Both the position numbers and the translations under genes were made by a program. The notes under the pieces are model-generated. The model saw nothing but the letters and a program-made list of their open reading frames with translations. It did no database searches and was not told where the DNA came from. Positions 608 to 15,946 of a DNA stretch of 15,946 bases are shown here, piece after piece. Source of the DNA: [Flavobacterium] thermophilum. Its GTDB lineage: Bacteria > Bacillota > Bacilli > Bacillales > Anoxybacillaceae. Location: contig UGGS01000005.1 of the NCBI GenBank assembly GCA_900450595.1, positions 1-15,946 on the forward strand, read 5' to 3'. The stretch's first letter is position 1, and the number at the start of each line of letters is the position of its first letter.

Positions 608-2907
<2,300 letters not shown>

Positions 2908-2912
2908 CCAAC

Positions 2913-2953
2913 AAAAAAGCAGCTTGTCCGTTTAAGGGGCAAGCTGCTTTTTT
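2913..2953 (+). terminator. Intrinsic terminator after katG
   Basis: The arms AGCAGCTTGTCC (2918-2929) and GGGGCAAGCTGCT (2936-2948) form a GC-rich stem with one wobble, followed by a run of six T. It starts six bases after the restored katG stop. The A-run before the stem makes it able to work in both directions. Confidence 0.92.
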
Positions 2954-3118
2954 ATATTCATATCCAGGGATTCTTTCTTAGACTTGTTGTGGATCAAAAG
3001 GGAAAGATTCGTTGAAAGGAAACTAGAGCGCTCAATTACCTGTTTTTATGCTTATGTGTCAGAGATTTGCAGAAAGAAAAGAGCCTTCGGAGAATCTTTG
3101 AGAATAGTATGTATTTTA

Positions 3119-3147
3119 TTGACAAATTATGTGTTTTTCAGTATGAT
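3119..3147 (+). promoter_or_regulatory. Strong sigma-A promoter driving the tandem-repeat leader and DUF3800 gene
   Basis: TTGACA (3119-3124) is a perfect -35 box. Exactly 17 bases later comes TATGAT (3142-3147), one mismatch from the consensus -10. The predicted start is near 3154, so the transcript would contain both repeats (3226-3310) before the gene at 3404. I see no comparably good promoter between the repeats and the gene. Confidence 0.75.
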
Positions 3148-3225
3148 TGCGGCAGAATCAAATCAAGATCAAATAGCATAGGGAAAGGGACAGGACAAAC
3201 GTTCACGTCAAAATAAAAAGACAGC

Positions 3226-3310
3226 TCAGCCCTGCCCAACGGTGGCGGGGAAAAGCTATCCTTCCGTACGTTGAGATGTTATCAGCCCTGCCCAACGGTG
3301 GCGGGGAAAA
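3226..3310 (+). repeat. Two identical 29-nt hairpin repeats separated by a 27-nt unique spacer
   Basis: The copies at 3226-3254 and 3282-3310 are identical over 29 bases, with a period of 56. Each begins TCAG and ends GGGGAAAA. Inside, CCCTGCC pairs with GGCGGGG (seven pairs, one wobble) around the 7-base loop CAACGGT. The spacer at 3255-3281 shows no repeat of its own. Two copies, the short spacer and the absence of cas genes argue against an active CRISPR array, although the layout resembles one. The position between a consensus promoter and a DUF3800 gene suggests a functional RNA. Confidence 0.9.
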
Positions 3311-3379
3311 CAACACCTTCTTTTTATGATTGTAAGGTATAAACGTGTTTTAGTCAACACAAAATGAATTTATGTATGG

Positions 3380-3399
3380 AAAGTAAAGGAGTTTACTTT
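3380..3399 (+). promoter_or_regulatory. Ribosome binding site of the DUF3800 gene presented in a hairpin loop
   Basis: AAAGTAAA (3380-3387) and TTTACTTT (3392-3399) form a perfect 8-bp inverted repeat whose 4-base loop is GGAG, the core of the Shine-Dalgarno AAAGGAG (3385-3391). The ATG follows 12 bases after the GGAG. The stem is nearly all A-U, so it would be weak at the growth temperature of a thermophile. It could be a protein-binding site or a temperature-sensitive control element; chance is not excluded. Confidence 0.6.
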
Positions 3400-3403
3400 A
3401 AAT

Positions 3404-4360
3404 ATGCACTACTTAATCTATTTTGATGAGAGCAATAAACTCGACCAGTTTAACGCTGACTATTCTTACTATGGGGCTTACGGAGGAACCGATGCCGCAA
3501 TGGCAAGGGTTGTTAAGCAAGTTCGAAACATCTTTAAACAGTGTAATTCTTTTAGTGAACTTCATTTTCGAGAGTATACGAAAGACAACCTTGTCAAGAA
3601 ATATTTTCAAACTCTTCATACGGTTATTAATGAGAATGTACAGATTAATATTCTAACCGTTAATAATAGGGATGCTTTGTATGCGGCACAGAAAATCGGA
3701 TTAACGGCGACTGAACTAAGAAACTTATTCTATATCAAAATACCGGAAAGATTATTTTATGGAATGACTCGGGATTTATCAAGTCAAGAATCTGGAACGA
3801 TTAAGGTGAAGATTAAGGTAGACCAGAATGATGAGTATGATAAGCTTTTTCTTGAAACAAAAATCATTGAACAGATGAACGCACATTCGGCTTATCGCAA
3901 TAAAAATTACCGCGTTGTTAATGTCCTTTCTCAAAACTCTGTTAAATCAATACCTTTGCAAATAGTGGATACATTTATGGGGATAGTTATATTTTTGTTG
4001 GAACAAAATTATCTTGAATTGTCCAATACTGCCAAGATAAAAAGTGATTTAATATATCGGTTCCTTATTGAAGGAAATAACTTAATGAAGTTTCAACAGC
4101 AAATCAAACTATATAAATGGACGGGACACGAAGAACTCACCTTTGTCAATATCAGCGACTATGTATCACCTTTTATGGCTTATAAAGCAGCATATGATTC
4201 ACAAGAAATAATACGAATTCAAAAGATCATGGTTGAGAATCCAGCGATGCCTCTAAAAGAGCTTAGACTCAAGGCAGGCTATCCGAATACCATGAAGAAC
4301 ACACTGATCGGATACAAGGATCAGATTGAAGGACGGGGTAGGAATTATTCTATTTTATGA
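3404..4360 (+). CDS. DUF3800-type protein, RNase H-like, function unknown
   Basis: This 318-residue protein has the DUF3800 pattern: an N-terminal strand with D8-E9-S10 (LIYFDESNK), SELHF with E52 and H54, an internal VDQND with D140, and PLQIVDTFMGIV with D189. These spaced acidic residues match what is expected of an RNase H-like metal site, so nuclease activity is plausible but unproven. The last 45 residues (NPAMPLKELRLKAGYP onward) look like a helix-turn-helix. The codon use is clearly more AT-rich than katG or the genes after 5996, which suggests recent transfer. DUF3800 proteins are often met in phages and mobile or defence regions; here the gene follows a tandem-repeat RNA under a strong promoter. 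The start at 3404 is chosen for its AAAGGAG. It is intact, with no frame breaks. Confidence 0.8.
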   Translation: MHYLIYFDESNKLDQFNADYSYYGAYGGTDAAMARVVKQVRNIFKQCNSFSELHFREYTKDNLVKKYFQTLHTVINENVQINILTVNNRDALYAAQKIGLTATELRNLFYIKIPERLFYGMTRDLSSQESGTIKVKIKVDQNDEYDKLFLETKIIEQMNAHSAYRNKNYRVVNVLSQNSVKSIPLQIVDTFMGIVIFLLEQNYLELSNTAKIKSDLIYRFLIEGNNLMKFQQQIKLYKWTGHEELTFVNISDYVSPFMAYKAAYDSQEIIRIQKIMVENPAMPLKELRLKAGYPNTMKNTLIGYKDQIEGRGRNYSIL

Positions 4361-4509
4361 TTCTCTTAGTTAGTTTTTTTTATCAATAAATATGAATCTT
4401 TGACACACAAAGAAAAGAAGGAGTTTTCCCATTCGGGCCATTTATGAAACCCGAGTTCGGCAGTCATGGCCGGCTGCATCTGTAAAATAGATCTGGAAAG
4501 GAGCGCCCG

Positions 4510-4935
4510 ATGAGGATACGCAAATGTGCTAGAGCAGTGATCATCAATGAGCGAAACGAAATTCTTCTTCAGCAATTTGAATTTCGGGATGTAGTAGGGA
4601 ACAAAGTGTTATGGGTTACTCCAGGAGGGGGCATTGAAGAAAACGAGACCCCAGCTGAAGCTTTAAAAAGGGAATTATACGAAGAACTAGGCATAGTGGT
4701 TGATCTTCTCGGTGGCCCCATATTCCAACTGGATGTATGGATTGAAGGAAAACAAGGTTCTTTTATTAGCCGGGAAATTTATTATCACGTTACGATCCAA
4801 TCCGATACGGTGTTGTCTATCGAACATATGACAAAGAACGAAAAAGACACACTGAAAGGACTCAAATGGTGGAGCAAAGACGAATTGCAGAAAATCGACA
4901 ACTTTGCGCCGCGTGAAATATTGAACTACATATAG
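4510..4935 (+). CDS. Nudix hydrolase
   Basis: Nudix enzymes hydrolyse a nucleoside diphosphate linked to another group, often in housecleaning or signalling. This 141-residue protein has a perfect Nudix box at residues 40-62: G40, E46, R54-E55-L56, E58-E59, G61. WVTPGGG just before it completes the fold. The C-terminal part (LKWWSKDELQ) is typical of small ADP-ribose or (d)NTP-type Nudix proteins, but the substrate cannot be read from sequence. GGAAAGGAG (4495-4503) sits 6 bases before the ATG. The gene lies 149 bases after the DUF3800 gene. It has no clear promoter of its own; a TTGACA at 4400-4405 lacks a matching -10, so shared transcription is possible. It is AT-richer than the genes after 5996. 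Confidence 0.92.
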   Translation: MRIRKCARAVIINERNEILLQQFEFRDVVGNKVLWVTPGGGIEENETPAEALKRELYEELGIVVDLLGGPIFQLDVWIEGKQGSFISREIYYHVTIQSDTVLSIEHMTKNEKDTLKGLKWWSKDELQKIDNFAPREILNYI

Positions 4936-5427
<492 letters not shown>

Positions 5428-5438
<11 letters not shown>

Positions 5439-5482
5439 TAACGTGCAGTGTTCCCGAGTGGTTCATGAAACACTGCACGTTA
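5428..5482 (-). terminator. Intrinsic terminator for the small minus-strand gene
   Basis: A perfect 14-bp inverted repeat, TAACGTGCAGTGTT (5439-5452) and its complement (5469-5482), has a 16-base loop. Read on the minus strand the stem is followed by TTATTTTATTT, so it fits a terminator for the gene ending at 5546. The stem is unusually long and perfect. Confidence 0.65.
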
Positions 5483-5545
5483 CCCGCTGCGTGTCGATTG
5501 TCGCAGGAAAGGCATGCTCCCATCCTTTCTTTTTAACTTTCAACG

Positions 5546-5740
5546 TTATGCAATGTCGGTGTGGCGATAGCGGACGCCTTTATACCGAACGCGAACCGGC
5601 ATGCCTTTCTCTTGTTTGTACCTAATGAGCAGCCGTCGAGCTTTTGAAAAGGCTTCCATCATCCCAGATGCCGGAATCGCCTCATCCCAGACAGACGTTC
5701 TTCCTTGGTCTGTGTAAAAGGAAAAGACGTACTGTTTCAC
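5546..5740 (-). CDS. Small conserved-looking protein, unknown function
   Basis: A 64-residue basic protein starting MKQYVFSFYTDQGRTSVWDE and ending GVRYRHTDIA. It has no signal peptide, membrane segment or cysteine, and it is rich in Arg, Lys and Tyr. I chose the GTG at 5740 because AGGGAGG lies 8 bases upstream; the GTG three codons earlier (5749) overlaps that site. A TATAAT (5764-5769, minus strand) could be its -10, but I see no convincing -35. A strong hairpin terminator lies about 60 bases downstream. I do not recognise the family. Good RBS, promoter element and terminator make it a real gene more likely than not. Confidence 0.6.
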   Translation of the reverse strand: MKQYVFSFYTDQGRTSVWDEAIPASGMMEAFSKARRLLIRYKQEKGMPVRVRYKGVRYRHTDIA

Positions 5741-5763
5741 CCTCTTCACCTCCCTATGTACTT

Positions 5764-5769
5764 ATTATA
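5764..5769 (-). promoter_or_regulatory. Possible -10 element of the small minus-strand gene
   Basis: TATAAT on the minus strand lies 24 bases upstream of the chosen GTG. The -35 region at 17-18 bases spacing is poor, so the promoter would need help from an activator or an unusual spacer. Confidence 0.4.
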
Positions 5770-5984
5770 ATCAGAGACTGTTTTTCCTAAACACAAAAAC
5801 TGTTACAATTATGTTAACATTTTCTGTGCCGCGGCACTATGAAAAAATGGCTGGCGGAATGGGCCGCCGTGTCACGTTCTTTTTTTGATCTATGGAGCTC
5901 CTTTCAGTATGTTCGTTGTCACCGCCGGAATCAGCCTGCCGCCATGCTGCAAAGCCAGCGGTCTCTCTCTTGTCGCCGCAAAGA
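5770..5984. other. Spacer between the small gene and nrnB, no supported gene
   Basis: A short plus-strand frame starts ATGAAAAAATGGCTGG at 5839 but has no Shine-Dalgarno site. Skipping one T in the T-run around 5880 would give a hydrophobic continuation (LIYGAPFSMFVVTAGI), hinting at the remnant of a membrane protein. It stops being protein-like by about 5945. The evidence is too weak for a gene call. Confidence 0.35.
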
Positions 5985-6012
5985 AAACCGGCACCTTATT
6001 CGATGCCGGTTT
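5978..6012 (-). terminator. Intrinsic terminator of the moxR-VWA-nrnB operon
   Basis: AAACCGGCA (5985-5993) and TGCCGGTTT (6004-6012) form a 9-bp stem with a 10-base loop; on the minus strand TTTTCTTT follows. The nrnB stop codon TAA (5998-5996) lies inside the loop, so the operon ends exactly at its last codon. Confidence 0.85.
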
Positions 6013-7234
6013 GATGTTTGTATTGTTTGACAGCCGACGGATAGTCGGCTTGGATGGCGTCTTTGTCCCGCCCGAGCCGCACGCTTAAAAACTCTAGCAC
6101 AGCGGCGTCGTAGGCGAGCCCTGCCGCAAACTGCCGCTTTAACCATCGCTCGCCTGCGGCTTCATCAGGAAAGGTGCGAGCCTCTCCCCCGTCGGCATAC
6201 CATGTCCATCCCTGTTCCGTCTGGCGGCTTAACCACCACTGGCCTTGATGATTCGTCCAAAACACGCCTTCTGCCTCTTCCCGCTTGTTCAGTTGGTTTT
6301 GTTCCGCATCGCCATAAACAGGCGCAAGCGGGAACGTCTCGATGACAAACAGCGGAAAGGTCGTGTCATCCACAAAACAACCCGATGCCTTCGGGTGGCC
6401 GCCGCCGCCAAACTGCTTCGCGAATTCGGCGACGTTGACGTCGTCATGGATGGTGCGAAACCCGATATGTTTTGTCCCGAGATTGACTAGGGCGATCAAA
6501 TCTAGGTGCGGATGCCGTTTGGATAAGGCGTTGCCAAGCTCCGACAGATGGCGTTCAGCGAACACGACGCCGATGCAGTAATCGCCGATCCAGCGCTGAA
6601 CGAGCTGCTTTTGCTTCTGTCGGATGTAGCGTTGAATTTTCTTTTCTTCCATATCCAGAAGCAACTCTTCCGTCTCCGTCAAGGCGAACGCCTCCCCGGA
6701 GGCGAGCCGCTCGCTCATCGTCTCCCAAAAGCCGTCGAGCCCGAGAATGGTGAACAAATCGTTGAGCCGCTTCGCTTGCAAATTCCCATTTTCTTCCCAT
6801 TCCCACGTGTCGTACTGGCGGACGAGCTCGACAAACGCATCCAACGTTTCGTTAGGCGCCAGTTTTCCTTCGCGGACGAGGTAATCGTAAAAGAGCGAGG
6901 TTGCACATGTTTTTTTGCCGTCTTCCCGTTCGGGCGCGACCCATCCCCATGGATAGCTGTTGAAATGAAGCGCGGTCACGTGGTGGTCGATGACTTGCAC
7001 ATGGCCGCCGCGCTTGGCCCGCTCGGCGAGCTGCTGCTCCACCTCCTGGCCGACGGCTAGGTCGGTGATAAACAGCATGGCGCCATTCGCTTCCTCGCTT
7101 TGCAAGAACTGGCTGACCCGTTCATCCAAGTTCCGGTACGAGCAAAACGAAATGTTCACCTCGGCAAACGCCAGCTTGGCGAGCAATCCGCAGCCGATGC
7201 CATCTAAATCGCTGTCGGTAAATAGTTTGATCAT
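5996..7234 (-). CDS. nrnB: DHH-family phosphoesterase, NrnB-like oligoribonuclease
   Basis: This is a 412-residue DHH/DHHA1 protein. Motifs visible: D7-S-D9-x-D11 (TDSDLDGIGCG), D58 (FITDLAV), D83-H84-H85 (VIDHHVTA), D142 (QYDTWEW), and the substrate-binding GGGGHPKASG at 276-285. These are the Mn-binding and DHHA1 signatures of enzymes that degrade very short RNA or pAp. Length and domain order fit Bacillus NrnB (YngD) better than the shorter NrnA, so I use that name with moderate confidence. A tail of about 120 residues follows the DHHA1 motif. I chose the ATG at 7234, not the upstream in-frame start at 7273, because it follows AAAGGATGG and avoids overlapping the previous gene, whose stop lies 17 bases upstream. 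It is the last gene of a three-gene operon and is intact. Confidence 0.85.
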   Translation of the reverse strand: MIKLFTDSDLDGIGCGLLAKLAFAEVNISFCSYRNLDERVSQFLQSEEANGAMLFITDLAVGQEVEQQLAERAKRGGHVQVIDHHVTALHFNSYPWGWVAPEREDGKKTCATSLFYDYLVREGKLAPNETLDAFVELVRQYDTWEWEENGNLQAKRLNDLFTILGLDGFWETMSERLASGEAFALTETEELLLDMEEKKIQRYIRQKQKQLVQRWIGDYCIGVVFAERHLSELGNALSKRHPHLDLIALVNLGTKHIGFRTIHDDVNVAEFAKQFGGGGHPKASGCFVDDTTFPLFVIETFPLAPVYGDAEQNQLNKREEAEGVFWTNHQGQWWLSRQTEQGWTWYADGGEARTFPDEAAGERWLKRQFAAGLAYDAAVLEFLSVRLGRDKDAIQADYPSAVKQYKHQTGIE

Positions 7235-7251
7235 CGATTCCCATCCTTTTG

Positions 7252-9162
7252 TTACAAGCTTTTTTGCAGCCACGTTTTCAAAAGCGGAAGCAGTCGGTCG
7301 GGCAGCTCGCTCACTTGTGGAACGAAAACGCGAAAGCGGCCGTAAATGTTTTCAATCGTCCGCCGCGTCGATTCGTCATCCGCCCCGCGGCCTAAAAAAA
7401 GGTTGACAACCTCAATGCCGCGCCTCCGCGCTTCGGCCACCGCTTCATGCGTGTCGATAATGCCGTTTTGTTCATAGCCATAGGCGGCCGGTTCCCCGTC
7501 AGAAAAGATGAGCAACACTTTTTGCATTTCCGGGCGACGGAGAAGTTGCTCAGTCATCCAGCGGATCGCCAGCCCGTCGCGGTTGTCTTCGTGGGGCTCA
7601 AGCTGCATGATCGCCGGGCCGCTTGATGGGTCCAACGACTCGCGGAACGAAACAGCCACTTGCAAGTAATTCGGCTGTCTGGCCGCGGTTGCCTCGTTGG
7701 CGTCTTCCCAAAACCCGACGATCTGGTGCGGCACACGCAACGTTTGAAGCACGTTGTGGCAGAGAACGAGCCCCGTTTTCGTTTCATCCATTTTATCGTG
7801 CATCGACGCCGAGCAGTCGACGAGCAGGCCGAACGCTGCGTTGAACCGCCGCGCTGGCTCGCCTTTTTTGTAAAACAGGCGCGGCCGCTCGTCGGTGAAA
7901 AACGGTATGAGCTGTTTGCGCAGCCGTCCGGCCGGCAAGTTCGTGCGCCACGTGCTGCGTTGGTGTTCGAGCCATTGCTCCATCACGCGCACAAGCCGCT
8001 TTCGGTATGGCGCGGCCGCCGCCTGTTTGCTGCGGTATTCGTTCCGTTCGTCACGACTTGGCGGCGGGGAAGAAAAAACAATGATGGCTGCCTGGCGGTT
8101 CGCTTCCCCATATGGAGCACCGCCTCCGGCTGGTCGATGTTCCTGGGATGCGGCCGCCGCCTCGAGGCCGTATTCGTTTCGCTTCGCCGGCCGGGACGTT
8201 CCTTGGACAATGGCGAGCGCCTGGTCGCCATCGTCCCCCGGCCTCGCCCCGTCGCCAAGCATGCCAGTGCGGGTGCCGCGTTTCAACTCAAAGCGGAGAA
8301 AATTCCCATTCGGCCGGCTTGTTTCCCGGTGCCACGTCGACAGCACTTCCTGGTGCGCTTTGCCGTTTGGCGGATTTTCCGCTGCATCGCGGTTTTCCAA
8401 CGGATCGACCCGCTTCAAATCGCGAACCGTCATCTCCGATTCATCGTCCCCGTCATCGACAAATGGAAGCGAGGTGTAAGCGTTCACCATGTCACCGGCA
8501 AGCGCCTCTTCCATCAATGCGACGATGGCTAACGCCCAGCGGGCCGTATCCGCGGTGGACATCGCGTCAAACCATTGCGGCCACAGCGCGTCAAGGCGCG
8601 CCTGCACCGTTTCATCCGCCATCGGAGCGAGCGGAACGTCATCAAGCGGCGAGTCGGCGGTCAGCCGCAAATACATCGCCGCCAAAAATTGATCGGCGGC
8701 GGCGCCGCGGGTTTGGTTTGCCTGCCATTGCTGGGTGAAGTAGCGACGGTAAAGGCGGCGGCGCGTGCGAAACCAACGTTTCACCCCGGGCCGTTCCCGC
8801 TCGCAGAGAGCCTCAACACGAAGATCCTCAGCCAACGAAAACAGCTGTTTCGCCAATTTCGGCCATGGGTGCGCTTCGGCTGCTTGCCGAAATGCGCGGA
8901 CCGCCGCTAGGTCCGTATGCCGCCGCGTGCCGATGACGCGCAAGGCGACATCGCTTTTCATTGCCGTTTCTTTCTCCTTTGGCGGATACACATCCCAAAA
9001 CTGACTGACGTACACCGTTGGCTTAACCGGATGCATCCCGGAATGGGCGGCGAACTCGACCGTCATGTCAGGACGGCGGGCGAGCGTTCGGGCGAGATCG
9101 GCGAGCTGCATCACCAAAAACGGATCAATCGGCCGATCGTTGAACATCATAAACCGTTCCAT
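7252..9162 (-). CDS. yojO: VWA-domain protein, partner of MoxR-type ATPase (YojO-like)
   Basis: This 636-residue protein carries a C-terminal von Willebrand A domain from about residue 440, with a complete-looking MIDAS: D449-C-S-A-S (LLVDCSASM), and D555 in FSDGEP. The N-terminal 250 residues are helical and Arg-rich. A low-complexity linker (about 260-400) is rich in Gly, Pro, Arg and Ala. Proteins of this kind (NorD, CbbO, CobT-like) pair with a MoxR-type AAA+ ATPase to insert metals or remodel client complexes; the client here is unknown. AGGAGG stands 6 bases before the ATG. The ATPase gene ends 9 bases upstream and nrnB starts 17 bases downstream, so the three are translated from one mRNA. 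Size and pairing fit Bacillus YojO. Confidence 0.85.
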   Translation of the reverse strand: MERFMMFNDRPIDPFLVMQLADLARTLARRPDMTVEFAAHSGMHPVKPTVYVSQFWDVYPPKEKETAMKSDVALRVIGTRRHTDLAAVRAFRQAAEAHPWPKLAKQLFSLAEDLRVEALCERERPGVKRWFRTRRRLYRRYFTQQWQANQTRGAAADQFLAAMYLRLTADSPLDDVPLAPMADETVQARLDALWPQWFDAMSTADTARWALAIVALMEEALAGDMVNAYTSLPFVDDGDDESEMTVRDLKRVDPLENRDAAENPPNGKAHQEVLSTWHRETSRPNGNFLRFELKRGTRTGMLGDGARPGDDGDQALAIVQGTSRPAKRNEYGLEAAAASQEHRPAGGGAPYGEANRQAAIIVFSSPPPSRDERNEYRSKQAAAAPYRKRLVRVMEQWLEHQRSTWRTNLPAGRLRKQLIPFFTDERPRLFYKKGEPARRFNAAFGLLVDCSASMHDKMDETKTGLVLCHNVLQTLRVPHQIVGFWEDANEATAARQPNYLQVAVSFRESLDPSSGPAIMQLEPHEDNRDGLAIRWMTEQLLRRPEMQKVLLIFSDGEPAAYGYEQNGIIDTHEAVAEARRRGIEVVNLFLGRGADDESTRRTIENIYGRFRVFVPQVSELPDRLLPLLKTWLQKSL

Positions 9163-9171
9163 GGCCTCCTC

Positions 9172-10047
9172 CTACTCGTCAAACCATGTTTCCGCGATAT
9201 TGCGCACCGCCGCCCGCTCCCGTTCATCGTCGAGCTTGTCGATGATGCTTCGTTCAATGGCGCGCAGCGGCGGGATATGCACCGCCAGATCGCACGCATC
9301 GAGCAAGGCGCGTACGGAAGCCACTTCTTCTGCCACTTGCCCGTTTCGCACCTGCGCCAGCAAGTCGGCTGACAAGGCGACGAAACGGTTGATCAACGCA
9401 TCGTCTGTTAATGTAGTTTGTGCCATGATGACCGATTTTAACGTCTCCCCCTGCACATATGGGACATCGATGACGACGAAGCGGTTTTTTAACGCTTCAT
9501 TGAGCGGCACGGTGCCGATATAACCTTCGTTGATCGCCGCAATGACGCCAAACGTCGGCTTCGCCTCGACGACCTCGCCAGTGAGCGGATTGGTGAGGCG
9601 GCGCCGATAGTCAAGCACGCTGTTTAAGATTGGCAGCGTCTCAGGTTTGGCCATATTGATTTCATCAATGTATAGCAAATGCCCCTTCTCCATCGCCCGG
9701 ATGACCGGGCCGGGCACATACTCGATCACCGCTTGGCCGTCGCGGTGCACGATCGTTTTAAACCCAAGCAGCGCCTCGGCATCAAGGTCCACAGAGCAGT
9801 TGATGCTGTGCATCGGCTGCCCGAACAAGGCGGACAACGTTTCCGCCAGCCGCGTTTTCCCCGATCCGGTTGGACCTTTTAACAGTACGTTTTTTCCAAG
9901 CGCCAGGGCGATGGCCGCATCGTGCACGATCGCTCCGTCTTCCGCCGTATACCCGTCGGAGCCGATCAGCGCGTGATCTGGATCATGGCGGAATAACGCT
10001 TTTCGTGTTTCCATTTCCCTTATGACAACCTGTGGCCATGTCAACAT
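9172..10047 (-). CDS. yojN: MoxR-type AAA+ ATPase (YojN-like)
   Basis: This 291-residue AAA+ ATPase has a Walker A at residues 58-65 (GPTGSGKT), Walker B at 124-131 (LLYIDEIN), sensor-1 N173 (IAAINEG) and an arginine finger candidate R189 (LKNRF). The sequence [14 protein letters not shown] after Walker A is typical of the MoxR/NorQ/CbbQ group, which acts as a hexameric remodelling machine together with a VWA protein. That partner is encoded 9 bases downstream. GAGGA lies about 9 bases before the ATG at 10047. It is the first gene of the operon with the VWA protein and nrnB. Size and pairing fit Bacillus YojN. It is intact, unlike its upstream neighbours rtp and purU. Confidence 0.92.
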
Positions 10048-10083
10048 CCTACGTCTTCCTCTCTGTTGCCGTGTCCTTCTCCC

Positions 10084-10112
10084 ATTCTACTAAATCGTTC
10101 GGTGGGATGCAA
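10084..10112 (-). promoter_or_regulatory. Possible promoter of the moxR-VWA-nrnB operon
   Basis: On the minus strand TTGCAT (10112-10107), 17 bases, TAGAAT (10089-10084). The -10 has one mismatch and the -35 three. It lies 37 bases before the ATG of the ATPase gene and downstream of the rtp terminator. Confidence 0.45.
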
Positions 10113-10154
10113 AACAAACAGAATTCACCATAAAAATGTTATGTAAATTCATAC

Positions 10155-10188
10155 AAAAAAAGAGGCGCCCTCAACTGAAGTTGTCCTC
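10155..10188 (-). terminator. Intrinsic terminator after rtp
   Basis: On the minus strand GAGG and CAACT pair with AGTTG and CCTC around a tiny loop, with an internal bulge, followed by seven T. The upper stem overlaps the last codons and stop of rtp. Confidence 0.6.
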
Positions 10189-10541
10189 ATCGCCTTGCGA
10201 ATGAGCGCCGCACACCGGTCCAGCTCCGCTTTCAGTTGGCGTTTGTACAATTTCGCCTTTTCCTGCCCCCCTTCCGCGAAGCGGTAGACACAACTTCTTG
10301 GTACTTCATGCCTTCTTTTTTCTGCTTGACTTGCTTTAAAATGCCGTCTTCAATCAAATCGTGGAGCGCTTTGTACACTTCGGAATGGTTCGGCCGGTAG
10401 CCAAACGGTTTAAACTCTGGCGCAGCACATCAAGCAGCTTCAGTCCATACACCGTTCTTGTTCCGTTAACGTGATTAAATACAGTTTTAAAAACGCACGT
10501 TGTTTTAACAGAAAACCGCTGGGCGTCCGTTTTTCTCCCAT
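10171..10541 (-). pseudogene. rtp: Replication terminator protein RTP, four single-base frame breaks
   Basis: RTP binds Ter sites as a winged-helix dimer and stops the replication fork in Bacillus-type chromosomes. The N-terminus [20 protein letters not shown] is very close to Bacillus RTP. Adding one base at each of about 10450-10455, 10409-10415, 10287-10291 and 10184-10188 restores the rest: [66 protein letters not shown] and an end DNFS. The restored length is about 124 residues, against 122 in B. subtilis from memory. AAGGAGG lies 10 bases before the ATG at 10541. Four missing bases in 371 with otherwise full conservation point to sequence error rather than decay; real loss would leave the cell without this terminator protein. 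In B. subtilis rtp lies at the terminus and is autoregulated through Ter sites in its own promoter. Confidence 0.9.
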
Positions 10542-10608
10542 AGGCTTTTTCCCTCCTTCCCTACGGATGAAATTTCGCTCTTTGGGCGGCCAAATCCTGC
10601 TTATCTTC

Positions 10609-10644
10609 ATTATACCATGCGGGAAAGGAAAAATCCTCTCCCGC
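10609..10644 (-). promoter_or_regulatory. rtp promoter region: TATAAT plus a strong inverted repeat
   Basis: On the minus strand a perfect TATAAT (10614-10609) lies about 68 bases before the rtp ATG. The place of the -35 is taken by a 26-base inverted repeat: GCGGGA and AGGA on one side (10619-10628), TCCT and TCCCGC on the other (10634-10644). No -35 consensus is visible. The repeat also stands just past the purU stop, but no T-run follows it on the minus strand, so it looks more like an operator or processing hairpin than a terminator. Confidence 0.5.
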
Positions 10645-10650
10645 TTGGGT

Positions 10651-11553
10651 TCAATAAAACACGATCGTTTTGTTTCCATGGATGATGACCCGGTCTTCCA
10701 AATGCCATTTGAGCGCCCGGCGAGCACGGTTTTTTCGATCAGGCGGCCGATCCGCCTTAAATCGTCGGGATGGTGGCGGTGGTCCACGCGGGCGACGTCT
10801 TGCTCGATGATCGGCCCTTCATCCAAATCGTCGGTGACGTAGTGCGATGTGGCGCCGATCAATTTGACGCCGCGCTCATACGCCCGCTCGTATGGCCTGG
10901 CGCCGATAAACGCCGGCAGGAACGAGTGTGGATGTTGATGATCCGTCCCGGGAATTCAGCCACAAACGCCGGCGATAAAATTTGCATGTACCGGGCGAGC
11001 ACAATCGTGTCGATGCGATAGTCATGAAGCAGGCGGATTTGCCTCGCCTCGGCGTCCGCCTTCGTTTCGCTCGTCACGGGAATGTGCACATACGGGAGTG
11101 CCAAACGGCTCGACCGCATCGCGCAAATCCGGATGGTTGCTGACAACAAGAGCGATATCGGCGATCAGTTCGCCTGCCTGCCATTGCCAAAGAAGTTCAA
11201 GCAAGCAGTGCTCCGCTTTTGAGACAAAAATGGCGATCCGCCGAATGTCGTTATGGAGGCGAAGATGCCAATCCATGCCAAACTCAGCAGCGATCGGGGC
11301 GAACGCCCGCTTCGATCTGGTCTTTTCGTTCCGTGATGTTCGGGCAGTCAAACTCCAAACGGAGGAAGAACGTACCCCCTTTCGGATCGGTCGAGTATTG
11401 GCTCGATTCGACGATATTGGCGCCTTGCTCATACAAGAAGGACGTGACCGCGGCGACAATGCCTGGACGATCCGGACAGGAAATGAGCAGGCGGGCGCGA
11501 TCTTCATAGCCTTGCAAAAATGATTGCCAGCGATGTTGGCGAAACGTCGTCAT
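10651..11553 (-). pseudogene. purU: Formyltetrahydrofolate deformylase PurU, four single-base frame breaks
   Basis: PurU hydrolyses 10-formyl-tetrahydrofolate to formate and tetrahydrofolate, balancing one-carbon units. An N-terminal ACT domain (about residues 15-90, starting LLISCPDRPGIVAAVTSFL) precedes the formyltransferase fold. The catalytic triad elements are N206, H208 in NIHHSFLPAF, and D244 in DEGPIIEQ. Frame breaks: an extra base at about 11301-11310 and 11095-11099, a missing base at about 10924-10931 and 10716-10722. Two gains and two losses cancel, and the repaired protein is exactly 300 residues, the family length, ending GNKTIVFY. The ATG at 11553 follows a GGGAGAG site. The regular structure argues for base-calling error. 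It has its own promoter upstream. Confidence 0.92.
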
Positions 11554-11590
11554 GTTGTTCTCTCCCTTTTCTTTCCGTCGTTTGGTTTTC

Positions 11591-11619
11591 ATCATACAAA
11601 AAAATCATCCGCTTGCCAA
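11591..11619 (-). promoter_or_regulatory. Promoter of purU
   Basis: On the minus strand TTGGCA (11619-11614), a 17-base spacer ending in TTG, then TATGAT (11596-11591). One mismatch in each box and ideal spacing. The -10 ends 37 bases before the purU ATG. Confidence 0.75.
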
Positions 11620-11723
11620 CTGCACGGTCCATCTTTTTTGCAAGAAAAGCCGCCTTTGCCCCTGCGGCGGAAGGGGCGATATTCAAAAGAACATCTCCCC
11701 TCGAGTAAAATGGCAGTGAAAAA
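11620..11723. other. Spacer between the purU promoter and the IS element, with alternative hairpins
   Basis: No gene is visible. CCGCC (11650-11654) can pair with GGCGG (11666-11670), or GCCCCT (11658-11663) with AGGGGC (11672-11677); the two hairpins exclude each other. If this was once the leader of xpt, the IS now separates it from that gene. None of the conserved pieces of a purine riboswitch (for example TCTACC or CCGTAAA) are present. Confidence 0.4.
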
Positions 11724-11770
11724 GGGGCTGACCCAAAAGTCCGCCAAAAAGCGGACTTTGGAGTCAGCCC
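11719..11770 (-). terminator. Terminator hairpin at the left IS end, behind the transposase gene
   Basis: GGGCTGAC (11725-11732) pairs with GTCAGCCC (11763-11770) and AAAGTCCGC with GCGGACTTT inside. On the minus strand the stem ends in CCCCTTTTT, a good terminator for the transposase transcript. Confidence 0.8.
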
Positions 11771-11831
11771 TCTCTGGTTTTTGTATATTTTACCAAACGG
11801 AACAAAATTCCGACTCTGTTCTCCCCCTCAT

Positions 11832-13381
11832 TTACGCCACCAAGGACAATTGCTTGTCCCTAGCGGCTTTTTTGAGAAGATTGTGGGCAGCACAAACCAG
11901 CCCCCATTCGATGGAAACTTTTTGGAGGCCTCGCAGGACAAAGCGACGAAACCCGCGATTTTGTTTGATTTGCCCAAATACACTCTCAATGTCGGTTTGG
12001 CGTTGGCGGTATCGGGCTTGCCCTTCTTCACTCTCCAACCGTTCGCGGGCTTTCTGTTTTTGTTCATGATAGACGGGGTTCCATTGCGTGGTTCGTCCAT
12101 ACTTGGAAGTCGTGCAGGCCGAACGGAACGGACATCCTTCGCATTCATGGCATTGGTAGTGTCGGGTGACCGAGGTGTATCCTGATTCCGTGGTCTGTTT
12201 CGAAGTTCCGGTGCGAACCAGCTTTTTCCCATTGGCGCAAATCCAAACGTCTTCTTCTTCCACATAGGTCCAATTCTGCTGATGATGCGGATTTTTCTTG
12301 ACCTTGCGCGTGTTCTCCTTCTCATACGTATGGTACTTGATCAAGGCCGATATGTGCTTCTCTTCCAGCTTCACGTAGTTCTCTTCCGAGCCATAAGCCG
12401 CGTCAGCGATCAAACGTTCGGGTTCCACGCCGTACTTCTCTCGAACGGTCTCCAAATGCGGGAGAAGACAACGAGTGTCGCCCGGCCTCTGATGAAGGGA
12501 ATACCCCAAAATAAATTGGCCGGAAGAACCCACCTGTACGTTATAGGCCGGCTTGAGCTGGCCGTTTCGCATGTGATCCTCCTTCAACCGCATGAAGGTG
12601 GCATCCACATCGGTCTTGGAATAGCTGTTGCGATCCCCGCATACATGGAGTTGGTGTTCATACTTTTCACTGCGGGGCAAGTAGTCCTCCTTCATCTTCT
12701 TGATGGCCTTCTTCAACGGTTGGTTGTCCGGCTCGGCCTCCAACCGTTTTTCCCACTCCTCGGTTTTCTTTCGGATTTCTTCTGACGTAAAGGCCGGCGA
12801 AGGGTCGATGTCTTCCGCCTTTTCTTCTTCCACGATCGCCTCGATCTGGGCAATCAGCCGATCGACATTGGCTTGGAGTTTCTCCTGGTACTTCTCAGCC
12901 GATTTGCGCCAACGAAGGTGTACCGGTTGGCATTCGCTTCAATTTTCGTTCCATCCACAAAATAATCTTCCATCTTGACATAGCCGTCGGCCACGAGCAG
13001 CGTGATCATTTCCCGGAACAGGTCGTCAATCAGGTCTTTCATCCGCTCCGAACGAAACCGATTGATGGAGCGGAAGTCCGGCTTTTTGAAATCCACTTAG
13101 CCACATGAGGGGAAGGTGGACTTCGAGCTGCCGTGCAATCTCACGGCCATGATACATTTTTTGGGTGTAAGCGTAAAGGAGAATTTTGGTCATCATTTTC
13201 GGATGATAGGCGGAGGCGCCCCTCCTTTGTAGTAAGCAAGAAACGTCTCCATCGGGATGCGTTCAACCATCTCATGAACCACGTGGGCCATGTTATCCCG
13301 TGGAATGAGATCGGCGATGTTGCTTGGCAAAGAGAGGTTGTCCATGGTATACTCTTTAAAGGAAATATGATCATGTTTCAT
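11832..13381 (-). pseudogene. IS1182-family DDE transposase, three frame breaks
   Basis: The transposase starts MKHDHISFKEYTMDNLSLPS at 13381 and ends KQLSLVA at 11832. The DDE residues appear in EDYFVDGTKIEANANRY (first Asp), RLIADAAYGSEEN (second Asp) and RQTDIESVFGQIKQN (Glu). A Cys-rich part (YQCHECEGCPFRSAC) lies before the last motif. Frame breaks: a missing base (or two extra) at about 13211-13222, an extra A in the run 13083-13087, and a missing base at about 12909-12912. Repair gives about 516 residues, in the normal range. As with the neighbouring genes, the breaks may be errors; if real, the element can only move with help from another copy. Confidence 0.92.
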
Positions 13382-13383
13382 AA

Positions 13384-13452
13384 AAGAATCGCCCTTCTTT
13401 CGGTGGTAGTGGTTTTGGTGACTCTATTCTACCAGAAAAAAGGGCGATTCTT
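13384..13452 (-). promoter_or_regulatory. Fold-back inverted repeat around the transposase promoter and start
   Basis: A perfect 13-bp inverted repeat, AAGAATCGCCCTT (13384-13396) and its complement (13440-13452), flanks a -10-like TAGAAT (13431-13426, minus strand). The inner arm covers the likely ribosome binding site (AAGGG) and ends 2 bases before the ATG. The element's own transcript would begin near 13419 and lack the outer arm, while read-through transcripts from outside contain both arms and would hide the start. The -35 is weak. Confidence 0.55.
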
Positions 13453-13473
13453 CTATATTTGAGGCAAAAAAGT

Positions 13474-13536
13474 GGGGGCTGATCCCAAAACGCATTCGCG
13501 TTTTGGGTCAGCCCCCGGTGTTTTTTAAGCTTTTTT
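13474..13536 (+). terminator. Terminator-like hairpin at the right IS end, facing xpt
   Basis: GGGGGCTGA (13474-13482) pairs with TCAGCCCCC (13508-13516), and CCCAAAACGC with GCGTTTTGGG inside, loop ATTC. Reading toward xpt, GGTGTTTTTT and a second T-run TTTTTTATTTT follow. It should stop transcription that enters from the left, 20-40 bases before the xpt ribosome binding site. Confidence 0.75.
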
Positions 13537-13554
13537 ATTTTGGAGGGGATTGGC

Positions 13555-14143
13555 ATGCGCGAATTGCTCGAAAAAATTGCCGCTGAAGGAGAGGTGCTGG
13601 CCGGCGGGGTGCTGAAAGTCGACCGCTTCTTAAACCATCAAAGTCGACCCGCATTTGATGAAGCGGATTGGGGAGGAGTTCGCCGCCAAGTTTCACTGTG
13701 AGCGGCCGACGAAAGTGCTGACGCTTGAGTCATCGGGCATCAGCCCGGCACTTATGGCTGCCTATGAACTTGGCGTTCCTCTTGTCGTTGCCCGCAAGCG
13801 GCGGCCAGTGACGATGGCCGACGATGTATACCGCGCGGAAGTATATTCGTTTACGAAGCAGGAGACGAACGAGATCGTTGTTTCCCGTTCGTTGCTTAAC
13901 AGCGGTGACCGGGTGCTCATTATCGATGACTTTTTAGCCAACGGCCAGGCAGCGCTTGGAATGACGGAGATTGTCCAACAAGCCGGCGCGGTTGTCGCCG
14001 GCATCGGCATCGTCATTGAAAAGGCGTTTCAAGACGGCGGGCGATTGCTTCGTGCGCGCGGCTTCCGCGTCGTATCGCTCGCCTGCATCGCGTCGCTTGA
14101 TGGTGGTGTCATTCAATTTGCTGACGAGGTGATGAGTCAATGA
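13555..14143 (+). pseudogene. xpt: Xanthine phosphoribosyltransferase Xpt, one frame break
   Basis: Xpt converts xanthine and PRPP to XMP in purine salvage. MRELLEKIAAEGEVLAGGVL at the N-terminus and the PRPP-binding loop [13 protein letters not shown] (about residues 120-132) are diagnostic. One extra A at 13639-13643 (CAAAG) breaks the frame after LNHQ; removing it joins [13 protein letters not shown] and gives 195 residues, the family size. GGAGGGG lies 8 bases before the ATG. The stop overlaps the pbuX start by ATGA, so the two are translationally coupled. No promoter is visible between the gene and the IS element whose terminator-like end lies only 39 bases upstream, and the usual purine riboswitch is missing. 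Error or real break cannot be told from sequence alone. Confidence 0.92.
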
Positions 14144-15445
14144 AGATGAAATGGTGGCAAGTTGGATCACTCGGCATCCAACACGTATTGGCGATGTACG
14201 CCGGGGCGATCGTCGTTCCGCTTATCGTCGGCGGGGCGTTGCATTTGACGAGCGAACAGCTGACGTATTTAGTGGCCATTGACTTATTGACGTGCGGCAT
14301 TGCGACGTTTTTGCAAGCGTGGAAAAACAAGTGGTTTGGCATCGGCTTGCCGGTTATGCTTGGCTGCACATTTACGGCGGTCGGGCCGATGATCGCTATT
14401 GGCGGACAGTACGGGATGCCGGCAGTGTATGGGGCGATCCTCTGCGCCGGAGCGGTTGTGGTGCTCATCAGTCCGTATTTCGGCAAGTTGCGGACGTTGT
14501 TTCCGCCAGTTGTCACCGGCTCGGTCGTGACCATTATTGGCTTGACGCTCATCCCGGCGGCGGTGAACAACATGGCCGGCGGGCAAGGGGCAAAAGACTT
14601 CGGCGATCCGGCCAACTTGGCGCTGTCATTTGGCGTCCTGGCGCTGATTATCTTGCTGTATCGTTGTTTACAGGATTCATCCGCTCGATCTCTGTTTTGC
14701 TTGGCATGGCAGCCGGAACGTTTGCCGCGGCCATGATGGGAAAAGTGGACTGGACGCCGGTTGCGGAAGCGTCATGGCTTCACTGGCCGACGTTGTTTTA
14801 CTTTGGCGCCCCGACGTTTCATGGGTCTGCTGTTTTCACCATGGTGCTCGTCGCGATCGTCAGCCTTGTCGAATCGACCGGCGTTTACTTTGCTTTGTCG
14901 GACATTTGCCGCCGCCGGCTGACCGATGACGATTTGCGGGCGGCTACCGCGCTGAAGGATTGGCCATCATCATCGGCGGGCTGTTGAACGCATTTCCGTA
15001 TACGACGTATTCGCAAAACGTCGGACTTGTTCAGCTATCGGGCGTGAAAACGCGCAATGTCATTTACGCTGCCGCGGCGTTTCTTGTCCTGCTTGGATTT
15101 GTGCCGAAAATCGCCGCCGTGGCGACAATCATCCCAGCGCCGGTTTTAGGCGGGGCCATGCTCGCTATGTTTGGCACGGTCATCGCCTACGGCGTGAAAA
15201 TGTTAAGCCAAGTCGATTTGGCTATGCAAGAAAACTTGCTGATCATTGCTTGCTCGGTCGGCATAGGGCTTGGGGTGACGGCGGTGCCGAACTTGTTTGC
15301 TGAGCTTCCGGCGGGCCTGCGCATTTTGACGGACAGCGGCATCGTCGCCGGCGGCCTCACCGCCATCCTTTTAAATGCCGTCTTCCATTTCGGCAAGGCG
15401 AGAAAATCGGCTGCACTGCCGTTGCAGGAACAAAAAATTTCATAA
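14140..15445 (+). pseudogene. pbuX: Xanthine permease PbuX, two frame breaks
   Basis: PbuX is a membrane proton-xanthine symporter of the NCS2 (nucleobase-ascorbate) family. It shows the NCS2 QH motif early (LGIQHVLAMYAG) and the later signature QNVGLVQLSGVKTR, with about a dozen hydrophobic segments. A missing base at about 14661-14665 (after LIILLYR) and another at about 14937-14944 (after DDDLR) break the frame; repair gives 435 residues, normal for the family, with clean sequence across both. The ATG at 14140 overlaps the xpt stop and follows GAGGTGA. Both genes supply and use xanthine, so this is the classic xpt-pbuX operon. A terminator follows. Confidence 0.93.
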
Positions 15446-15464
15446 TCGTGTTGATCGCTTTTAT

Positions 15465-15496
15465 AGCCATCTTCGTTTTCTGGCCGCTGCTCGGAA
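15465..15496 (+). terminator. Intrinsic terminator after xpt-pbuX
   Basis: AGCCATC (15465-15471) pairs with GATGGCT near 15489, with TTTTC/GAAAA pairing inside, and TTTTTT follows. It lies about 20 bases after the pbuX stop. Confidence 0.75.
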
Positions 15497-15564
15497 AATG
15501 GGGATGGCTTTTTTGTCGGCGTGTCGATTGGCGGTGAAAACGATAGAAATTGGTAGAAGTATGA

Positions 15565-15573
15565 TGGTATAAT
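15565..15573 (+). promoter_or_regulatory. Extended -10 promoter of the coiled-coil gene
   Basis: TGGTATAAT: a perfect TATAAT (15568-15573) with the TGn extension. The -35 position (15545-15550, AGAAAT) is poor, which is typical of extended -10 promoters. Confidence 0.6.
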
Positions 15574-15596
15574 GGAAAGCGAAAGGGGGTGAAACG

Positions 15597-15946
15597 ATGG
15601 ATGAATGGGTGGAGCGCCTTTTCGATGAGCTGCGGCAAATACGGAATCAGATGGCGACCAAACAGGATGTTGTGCGGGTGAATGATCGCATCGATCGGCT
15701 TGAACAAACGGTGAGCGCGACGAAAGAGGATGTTGCGCGGTTAAATGGACGCGTCGGGCAACTCGAAGAGACCGTGGCAGCGACGAGAGAAGACGTTGTC
15801 CGGATGAATGATCGCATCGGGCGGCTTGAGCAGACCGTGGCAGCGACGAGAGAAGACGTCGCAGCGCTGGATGAGCGCATCGGGACTATCGAGCGGACGA
15901 TGGCAACGAAAGAGGATGTCGCAACGCTGGATGGGCGCATCGGGAC
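15597..15946 (+). CDS. Coiled-coil protein of 21-residue tandem repeats, cut by window edge
   Basis: The visible 116 residues begin MDEWVERLFDELRQIRNQM and continue as repeats of the form ATKEDVARLNGRVGQLEETV, each 21 residues (63 bases), the fourth 20. Five copies are seen, the last incomplete. Three heptads per repeat with hydrophobic residues at regular positions predict a long coiled coil. No signal peptide or membrane segment is visible in this part. A good site AGGGGGTG lies 6 bases before the ATG, and a promoter precedes it, so it is a separate unit from xpt-pbuX. I do not recognise a function; the rest is outside the window and may hold an anchor or other domain. Confidence 0.8.
   Translation, partial: MDEWVERLFDELRQIRNQMATKQDVVRVNDRIDRLEQTVSATKEDVARLNGRVGQLEETVAATREDVVRMNDRIGRLEQTVAATREDVAALDERIGTIERTMATKEDVATLDGRIG
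15654..15946 (+). repeat. 63-bp coding tandem repeat
   Basis: Units start at about 15654, 15717, 15780, 15843 and 15903, each beginning with an Ala-Thr-Lys/Arg-Glu/Gln-Asp-Val codon block. The third and fourth units share near-identical DNA over their starts (GCAGCGACGAGAGAAGACGT), which suggests recent duplication. Confidence 0.85.

Follow-up and report, generated by a model that had tools for sequence, protein, structure and literature searches.

What do two identical repeats in front of a DUF3800 gene encode, and do they belong to the transcript of that gene? The question is raised by a 15,946-nt stretch of [Flavobacterium] thermophilum DNA, here called the window, in which two identical 29-nt copies (3226–3254 and 3282–3310, 27 nt apart; 0 expected from 200 shuffles), each able to form a 7-bp hairpin, lie upstream of an open reading frame. 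A first-pass annotation had described these hairpin repeats, read them as the leader of a DUF3800 mRNA and likened the layout to type III toxin–antitoxin systems. Its central proposal, that a structured RNA and a DUF3800 nuclease form a mobile and possibly defence-related module, is supported by the analysis below; the placing of the RNA is not. The 29-nt repeat proves to be only the core of a larger unit: an outer stem of ~7–10 bp encloses each core, and the outer stems differ between the two units of the window RNA.

The open reading frame (3404–4360, plus strand) is intact and encodes 318 residues. Pfam DUF3800 (PF12686) matches it at E 1.9e-6 (29.1 bits against a cut-off of 21) and is the only Pfam match up to E 0.01; in PADLOC, the protein matches the candidate family PDC-M04A (6.7e-6). 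The acidic residues singled out by the first-pass annotation, D8, E9, E52, D140 and D189, are invariant across 34 aligned sequences. Structure prediction, which had also been proposed there, gave a model with a pLDDT of 92.7 whose best fold match is RNase HII, and the protein is here regarded as a predicted nuclease with an RNase HII-like fold. In the parts covered of two published studies, DUF3800 is a domain without assigned function, with structured RNAs reported in its vicinity and with occurrences in some CRISPR loci (PMC10910872, PMC12669027).

A protein search returned 279 relatives, of which the best 120 were considered, and a scan with the 34-sequence alignment placed 41 loci in species genomes, among them Geobacillus, Anoxybacillus, Paenibacillus and Brevibacillus. 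The 330 nt upstream of the gene were inspected for 37 of the 41; the other four have a gene cut by a contig edge (L038, L070), a 43-residue fragment (L073) or a partial gene (L072), the last accompanied by two units according to RNA model R1. Two hairpin units were seen by eye beside the DUF3800 gene in all 37 inspected loci. The exceptions found in this upstream comparison, which the first-pass annotation had suggested as a search for homologues lacking the repeats, are two broken genes that keep one unit and a 69-residue fragment of a family gene (L031) at which no RNA was matched. Nine of the 37 loci, group B, have a different inner region, and a second model, R2, finds eight of these nine (E 7e-5 to 0.03), missing L063. 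The RNA model detects the RNA in four of five close plasmid relatives (E 1e-11 or better); in the fifth, from the same species as L063, it was recognized by eye. One genome outside the Bacilli, G1074, also has the RNA; its DUF3800 protein is identical to one named Heliorestis convoluta.

Beyond these relatives, the searches were negative. Distant DUF3800 loci (L015–L027 and L032; 23–29% identity) gave no Rfam DUF3800 RNA, the only match there being an L31 leader, and no R2 match better than E 0.98; the distant plasmid relatives L335 and L336 gave nothing convincing. In viral contigs, 14 stretches found by protein fitted the pattern and none was confirmed, and none of the 80 stretches scanned with R2, out of 105 found with a degenerate DNA pattern, matched at E up to 0.1. 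Phage records contained no protein match, and with the Wadjet-linked RNA of L110 as the DNA query, plasmids and phages gave short chance matches only. Two arrangements met along the way are recorded here: in a Brevibacillus laterosporus plasmid (L332, 2314–4638), an RNA–DUF3800 pair lies between cas3 and an RNA ligase family gene, and in Litchfieldia (L053, 3847–3951 and 8433–8516), two tandem RNA–DUF3800 pairs have a Lamassu LmuB-like gene between them.

Each hairpin unit consists of the outer stem, a 3 × 3 internal loop and an inner stem that a single mismatch interrupts. In the window, both units lie on the minus strand: unit A, first in the RNA, at 3274–3318 (core 3282–3310; 52.7 bits by R1) and unit B, second in the RNA and forming the terminator stem, at 3218–3262 (core 3226–3254; 54.6 bits by R1), both being training sequences of that model. 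Compensatory changes had been named in the first-pass annotation as something to look for, and they are plentiful: across 55 group A units, 92.5% of cells are paired, double changes occur in 14 of 15 pairs (232 double-change cells), and the covariation score is 0.729 versus 0.265 for shuffled alignments. Sliding the partner by one column lowers pairing to 46–49%. Units A and B differ in the sequence of their outer arms, and each stem is nonetheless paired, with mismatches or a bulge in the unit A outer stem at a few loci (L049, L055, L057, L067, L069). Judged from these alignments, covariation in the hairpins is strong, and paired changes have remade the outer stems. With this and the hairpins at all 37 inspected loci, the first-pass proposal withstood two of the outcomes that it had named as refuting.

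Plain stem-loops, without the pseudoknot of type III repeats, suffice to explain this covariation, loop pairings having been viewed by eye only. One such pairing, between a loop and an ACGG-like leader motif, was rejected because it failed in the group with ACCAUU loops. The single-stranded ACGG-like motif itself precedes one unit in 21 of the 37 RNAs with the patterns used, 14 times in the leader and 7 times in the linker; the linker cases include the Geobacillus group (e.g., window 3254–3282, minus strand). Folding energy was discarded as a lone support, the z values of −0.9 to −2.2 for plus-strand pieces being weak, and no conserved open reading frame for an encoded peptide was found among 39 RNAs.

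The two units of one RNA resemble each other in a particular way. In group A (28 loci), likeness between cores is 0.88 within a locus versus 0.68 between loci, a value reached by 0 of 5000 permutations, and the outer arms show no such likeness (0.31 within versus 0.28 between). Like cores held in unlike stems suggest, as far as sequence comparison goes, that one partner may read both cores in group A. Group B (9 loci) behaves differently: within-locus core likeness is 0.71 versus 0.90 between its A units, and 513 of 5000 permutations reach the within-locus value.

The RNA apparently belongs to the minus strand and is read away from the DUF3800 gene, with its own promoter and terminator: a conserved promoter, a conserved terminator and the pattern of G·U pairs all point that way. 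Of 39 upstream regions, 37 have a TTGAC-17-TATAAT-like promoter directed away from the gene at a shared position in the alignment, each hexamer being required to match in no fewer than 4/6 places and the spacer to be exactly 17; L037 falls short in its −10 hexamer and L064 in its −35 hexamer. Best minus-strand promoter scores average 10.2 over the 39 regions; best plus-strand scores average 8.5, with per-locus shuffle means of 8.2–8.8, and no conserved plus-strand promoter for the DUF3800 gene was found in these regions. A T-run of at least four follows unit B in 37 of 37 RNAs, against 6 of 37 at the mirrored plus-strand position. An A·C pair on the minus strand would be a G·U pair if the RNA were on the plus strand. 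In 74 units from 37 sequences, the minus-strand stems contain 429 Watson–Crick pairs, 44 G·U and 2 A·C; outer arms were paired symmetrically outward from the inner hairpin with G·U and A·C both allowed, which favours neither strand, and most group B units contribute nothing to this count, the register having been set on group A. Imposed on a plus-strand alignment, this structure is 84.9% paired with fewer pair types than shuffles, although that alignment places one inner pair less well. Fold stability separates the strands weakly: the minus-strand fold is the more stable one for only 28 of the 39. Because these sets include several near-identical loci, the counts are less independent than they look.

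In the window, the predicted small RNA gene of ~110 nt therefore occupies 3210–3322 on the minus strand (R2 match 3212–3318). Its predicted sigma-A promoter lies at 3329–3357 (TTGACT at 3357–3352, a 17-nt spacer and TACAAT at 3334–3329), its predicted start is near 3322, and its predicted end falls within 3219–3210, where the T-run TTTTTATTTT (3210–3219, minus strand) closes a predicted intrinsic terminator. On these strand signals (minus-strand promoter, T-run and G·U pairs), the earlier reading of the repeats as an mRNA leader was rejected, and with it the type III-like layout that had been proposed. The promoter on which that reading drew, TTGACA-17-TATGAT, does exist at 3119–3147 on the plus strand and is a possible promoter of the DUF3800 mRNA, but it is not general, being seen only in close Geobacillus relatives.

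The pair occupies a site that is variably filled. In 6 of 14 congeneric genomes (G000, G001, G004, G009, G010, G013), the block lies between katG and a NUDIX gene, and in five (G002, G003, G005, G007, G012) the site is empty, with a katG–NUDIX gap of 197–396 nt; in the window, this distance is ~1.6 kb with the block included. In the remaining three, the katG side was matched and the NUDIX gene was not. One genome with an empty site, G012, has a related block (80% protein identity) ~4–5 kb away. This presence and absence across the 14 genomes indicates that the RNA and the DUF3800 gene form a transferred cassette that is acquired or lost whole, in agreement with the transfer suspected from base composition in the first-pass annotation. 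The compositional contrast itself is one-sided: the gene block has 33–36% GC against 54–60% in katG on the left, but the first 1.5 kb on the right, which had also been called GC-rich, has only 42–49%.

The surroundings of the block have features of their own. The window is the whole of contig C5 (15.9 kb), a near-repeat of two stretches of contig C1 that correspond to at least window 1619–13515 and 11724–15946, and C5 may have arisen in assembly or may reflect a true duplication. The junction is a multi-copy transposase element (11724–13516; DDE_Tnp_1_6 domain) with at least 9 near-identical genomic copies. The katG-like catalase-peroxidase gene (701–2842; identified by eye) is broken across three reading frames; as small indels nearby distinguish the C1 copy, errors in the contig may be involved. 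The Pfam scan of the window covered five open reading frames, one of them a TnpB-like remnant.

Damaged copies of the cassette bear on the relation between RNA and gene. In G004 and G010, a single core joins one arm of each unit; R1 matches positions 9–37 of 45 and leaves the outer stem unmatched. The accompanying genes are broken, by an insertion of ~1.0 kb in G004 and by the loss of ~0.8 kb in G010. An intact family gene was never seen beside fewer than two units, and the link between a one-unit RNA and a broken gene comes from these two related genomes only. Broken genes also occur beside two-unit RNAs: L045, L063 and L067 stop early, for which sequencing error is possible, and in L050 the gene is split between frames and the two-unit RNA is kept.

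The RNA models also identified partners other than DUF3800. Searches covered 397 genomes of the order (R1), 398 of the class (R2) and 398 of the phylum (R2), in overlapping draws, and gave matches in 13, 7 and 2 genomes, respectively, 18 of them distinct. A family DUF3800 gene or remnant adjoins the RNA in 14 of the 18, counting a remnant (G010), two frameshifted genes (G025, G543) and one gene at whose start the contig ends (G060). In two others, no family DUF3800 gene stands beside the RNA, and a complete Wadjet operon is divergent from it: Wadjet III (JetDABC) in G342 and Wadjet II (JetABCD) in G101. Both RNAs were found by R1, which was built without them; they keep 30/30 (G342) and 27/30 (G101) of the modelled pairs and, by eye, have TTGACA followed 17 nt on by TAAACT. 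On the terminator side of the G101 RNA lies a split DUF3800-like gene of another subfamily (L131, 11499–12668). The last two genomes, G589 and G736, have an RNA-model match with neither a family DUF3800 gene nor a Wadjet partner. The G736 match (L141, E 1.3e-5) was rejected as a chance pair of terminator-like hairpins; that of G589 (L140, 1501–1593; E 7.2e-7) consists of two hairpins directly after HTH-type genes, without a convincing promoter, and both DUF3800 and Wadjet are absent within 1.5 kb of it.

Approached from the Wadjet side, the association is rare. Sixty Wadjet loci were scanned (30 of 31 JetD3 matches and 30 of 41 JetA2 matches), and 58 of the 60 contain no RNA match at E up to 1; the 30 JetD3 loci include one decayed copy, and G101 itself is the sole match in the 30 JetA2 loci. 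A possible origin for the G342 arrangement is visible in L051, where the RNA and DUF3800 are followed downstream by a JetC3 end that is 92% identical to its G342 counterpart. The stretch of 211 nt that runs from the RNA up to the DUF3800 start is 81.5% identical in DNA between G342 and L051, and the genes that follow it differ. The simplest history we can infer is that RNA, DUF3800 and Wadjet were once neighbours and that G342 lost DUF3800 and kept the RNA. Wadjet genes lie near 4 of the 41 family loci (L044, L045, L051, L061) versus 0 of 20 hand-picked control regions, a small comparison, and Lamassu-like, type I restriction, Gabija-helicase-like and Fic genes lie near other family loci. Ten neighbour proteins, picked partly for size, were tested, and eight matched. 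PADLOC tallies set 129 neighbour genes (of 178 open reading frames) against 129 control genes from the 20 hand-picked regions; the control genes also match mad3, GajB and other families, and since the tallies list families rather than genes, only the Wadjet comparison was used. Defence genes lie near the RNA–DUF3800 pair in several relatives; the pair is probably part of defence against phages or plasmids.

How might RNA and protein act together? We give about an even chance to the proposal that the divergent two-hairpin RNA binds the predicted RNase HII-fold nuclease and keeps it inactive. The observations on which this proposal builds are the RNA family, its strand signals and covariation, its pairing with one DUF3800 subfamily, the presence and absence of the cassette and the fold model. 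The two hairpins of the minus-strand RNA (3210–3357 region) would bind the DUF3800 nuclease, binding would inhibit it, and entry of a phage or plasmid would lower the RNA and so free the nuclease; in this scheme the RNA would behave as an RNA antitoxin does, but with the gene order reversed and a toxin of unrelated fold. We favour inhibition because of the core likeness in group A, because the RNA exists without the gene and the intact gene is unseen without the RNA, and because in AbiF/RCd22 a terminated two-hairpin RNA of similar size neutralises a defence protein. The orphan RNAs of G342 and G101, with intact features and no family gene beside them, are counted on this side. Against inhibition stand the missing within-locus core likeness of group B, the broken genes beside two-unit RNAs (L045, L063, L067, L050) and the RNA-model matches with neither partner in G589 and G736; a required cofactor would also fit the pairing pattern almost as well. 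RNA distances follow protein distances, but those of the outer stems do so no less than those of the cores, so the correlation reflects shared descent and is no proof of contact; as a sign of co-evolution, it was set aside as uninformative.

The cofactor alternative, in which the RNA is a required cofactor or guide and an active ribonucleoprotein with the DUF3800 nuclease attacks foreign nucleic acid, is possible though on the unlikely side. The near-constant pairing of RNA and gene and the likeness of cores fit it equally, and in the parts covered of two studies, DUF3800 is an accessory in some class 2 CRISPR loci with a suggested role in interference or crRNA handling (PMC10910872, PMC12669027). 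However, the RNA has no variable unpaired stretch to serve as a guide, its variable parts being paired arms, and in two genomes RNAs with intact promoter, stems and terminator persist without a family DUF3800 gene. Those same two genomes are what recommends another explanation, which we consider unlikely: that the RNA gene is a control region whose transcription, or whose RNA, tunes the divergent defence operon behind it. In them, this RNA gene stands at the head of a complete Wadjet III and a complete Wadjet II operon, and G342 and L051 have it in front of different genes. Yet the RNA is missing from nearly all scanned Wadjet loci, the JetC3 end downstream of DUF3800 in L051 means that loss of DUF3800 can explain G342, and no conserved plus-strand promoter was found. 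Nor does the RNA match its own gene start in antisense: with overlap with the RNA's own DNA excluded, the pairing energy was −31.0 kcal/mol versus −30.0 for other gene starts (rank 16.6, 18 expected), and antisense action was rejected for want of signal. It is highly improbable that the repeats form a mini-CRISPR, or DNA repeats of another sort, and lack any function as RNA: 29-nt repeats set 27 nt apart do resemble a one-spacer CRISPR array, but the apparent spacer holds covarying outer stem arms, which refutes this reading, and two units with a conserved promoter and terminator recur in 37 of 37 inspected loci, with no cas operon noted in the window among the five open reading frames scanned against Pfam. 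Returning to inhibition, a broader and doubtful extension is that a portable divergent two-hairpin RNA silences an RNase HII-fold nuclease until infection stops transcription and is also the control RNA of Wadjet operons, which would make it a general RNA safety catch for Bacillota defence genes.

Structured RNAs near DUF3800 genes are a known kind. They were reportedly first described by Weinberg in 2017. Among the sources covered in part, two report such RNAs (PMC11701678, PMC10910872), and Rfam 15 names DUF3800-I and DUF3800-IX (PMC11701678). The first-pass annotation had pointed to these families for a covariance-model search, and none of them matches the window RNA: Rfam 15 gives 0 matches in the window at gathering score, and the 11 matches in 2900–4500 up to E 10 include no DUF3800 family. 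DUF3800-I was unmatched in 41 genomes, but since the control genomes gave no match either, this carries no information. The window RNA is thus like the Rfam DUF3800-associated RNAs (DUF3800-I, DUF3800-IX and others) in adjoining a DUF3800 gene as a structured RNA, and unlike them in matching no family model. Literature naming DUF3800 contains, in the parts covered, no description of this RNA, and searches on Wadjet with non-coding RNA and on mixed terms gave no such module in the titles and abstract openings covered. What appears new here is an RNA absent from Rfam 15, the reversed gene order, the predicted RNase HII-like partner and the link to Wadjet. The family offers a compact test case for DUF3800-associated RNAs, with one small RNA of predicted ends and one protein, and its broken and orphan versions are natural controls.

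Set against known systems, the locus differs from a CRISPR array in having two units in 37 loci and, in place of a unique unpaired spacer, covarying stem arms. It shares with Wadjet II and III an RNA gene that, in two genomes, stands divergently upstream of a complete operon, although no Wadjet gene lies beside the RNA in this window; a role of the RNA in Wadjet, if real, would make a single RNA family common to separate defence systems. The closest parallel in RNA form is AbiF/RCd22, described, in the part covered, as a type III-like toxin–antitoxin module in which a terminated RNA of ~100–130 nt with two hairpin motifs, a sigma-A promoter and a Rho-independent terminator lies beside a toxic defence protein that it binds and neutralises (PMC12373285). 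There, according to the same part, the RNA is upstream of the gene and co-transcribed with it, whereas the window RNA is apparently divergent; the AbiF protein is Abi_2, whereas the window protein is predicted to be RNase HII-like, with no Abi_2 match (Pfam, E up to 0.01). Type III toxin–antitoxin systems (ToxIN, CptIN, TenpIN) likewise have repeated RNA units adjoining a predicted nuclease gene, with 2–5.5 repeats quoted in the part covered (PMC12373285), and the two units of the window family lie at the low end. In the parts covered of two sources, type III RNA and toxin are co-transcribed with a terminator between them (PMC8860590, PMC12373285); here, the signals place them on opposite strands and no terminator separates them on the strand of the gene. 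The predicted fold probably differs too: its best matches are RNase HII, although a list of this kind may miss the ToxN, CptN or TenpN fold. If the RNA restrains the nuclease, RNA antitoxins would be tied neither to co-transcription nor to the known type III toxins.
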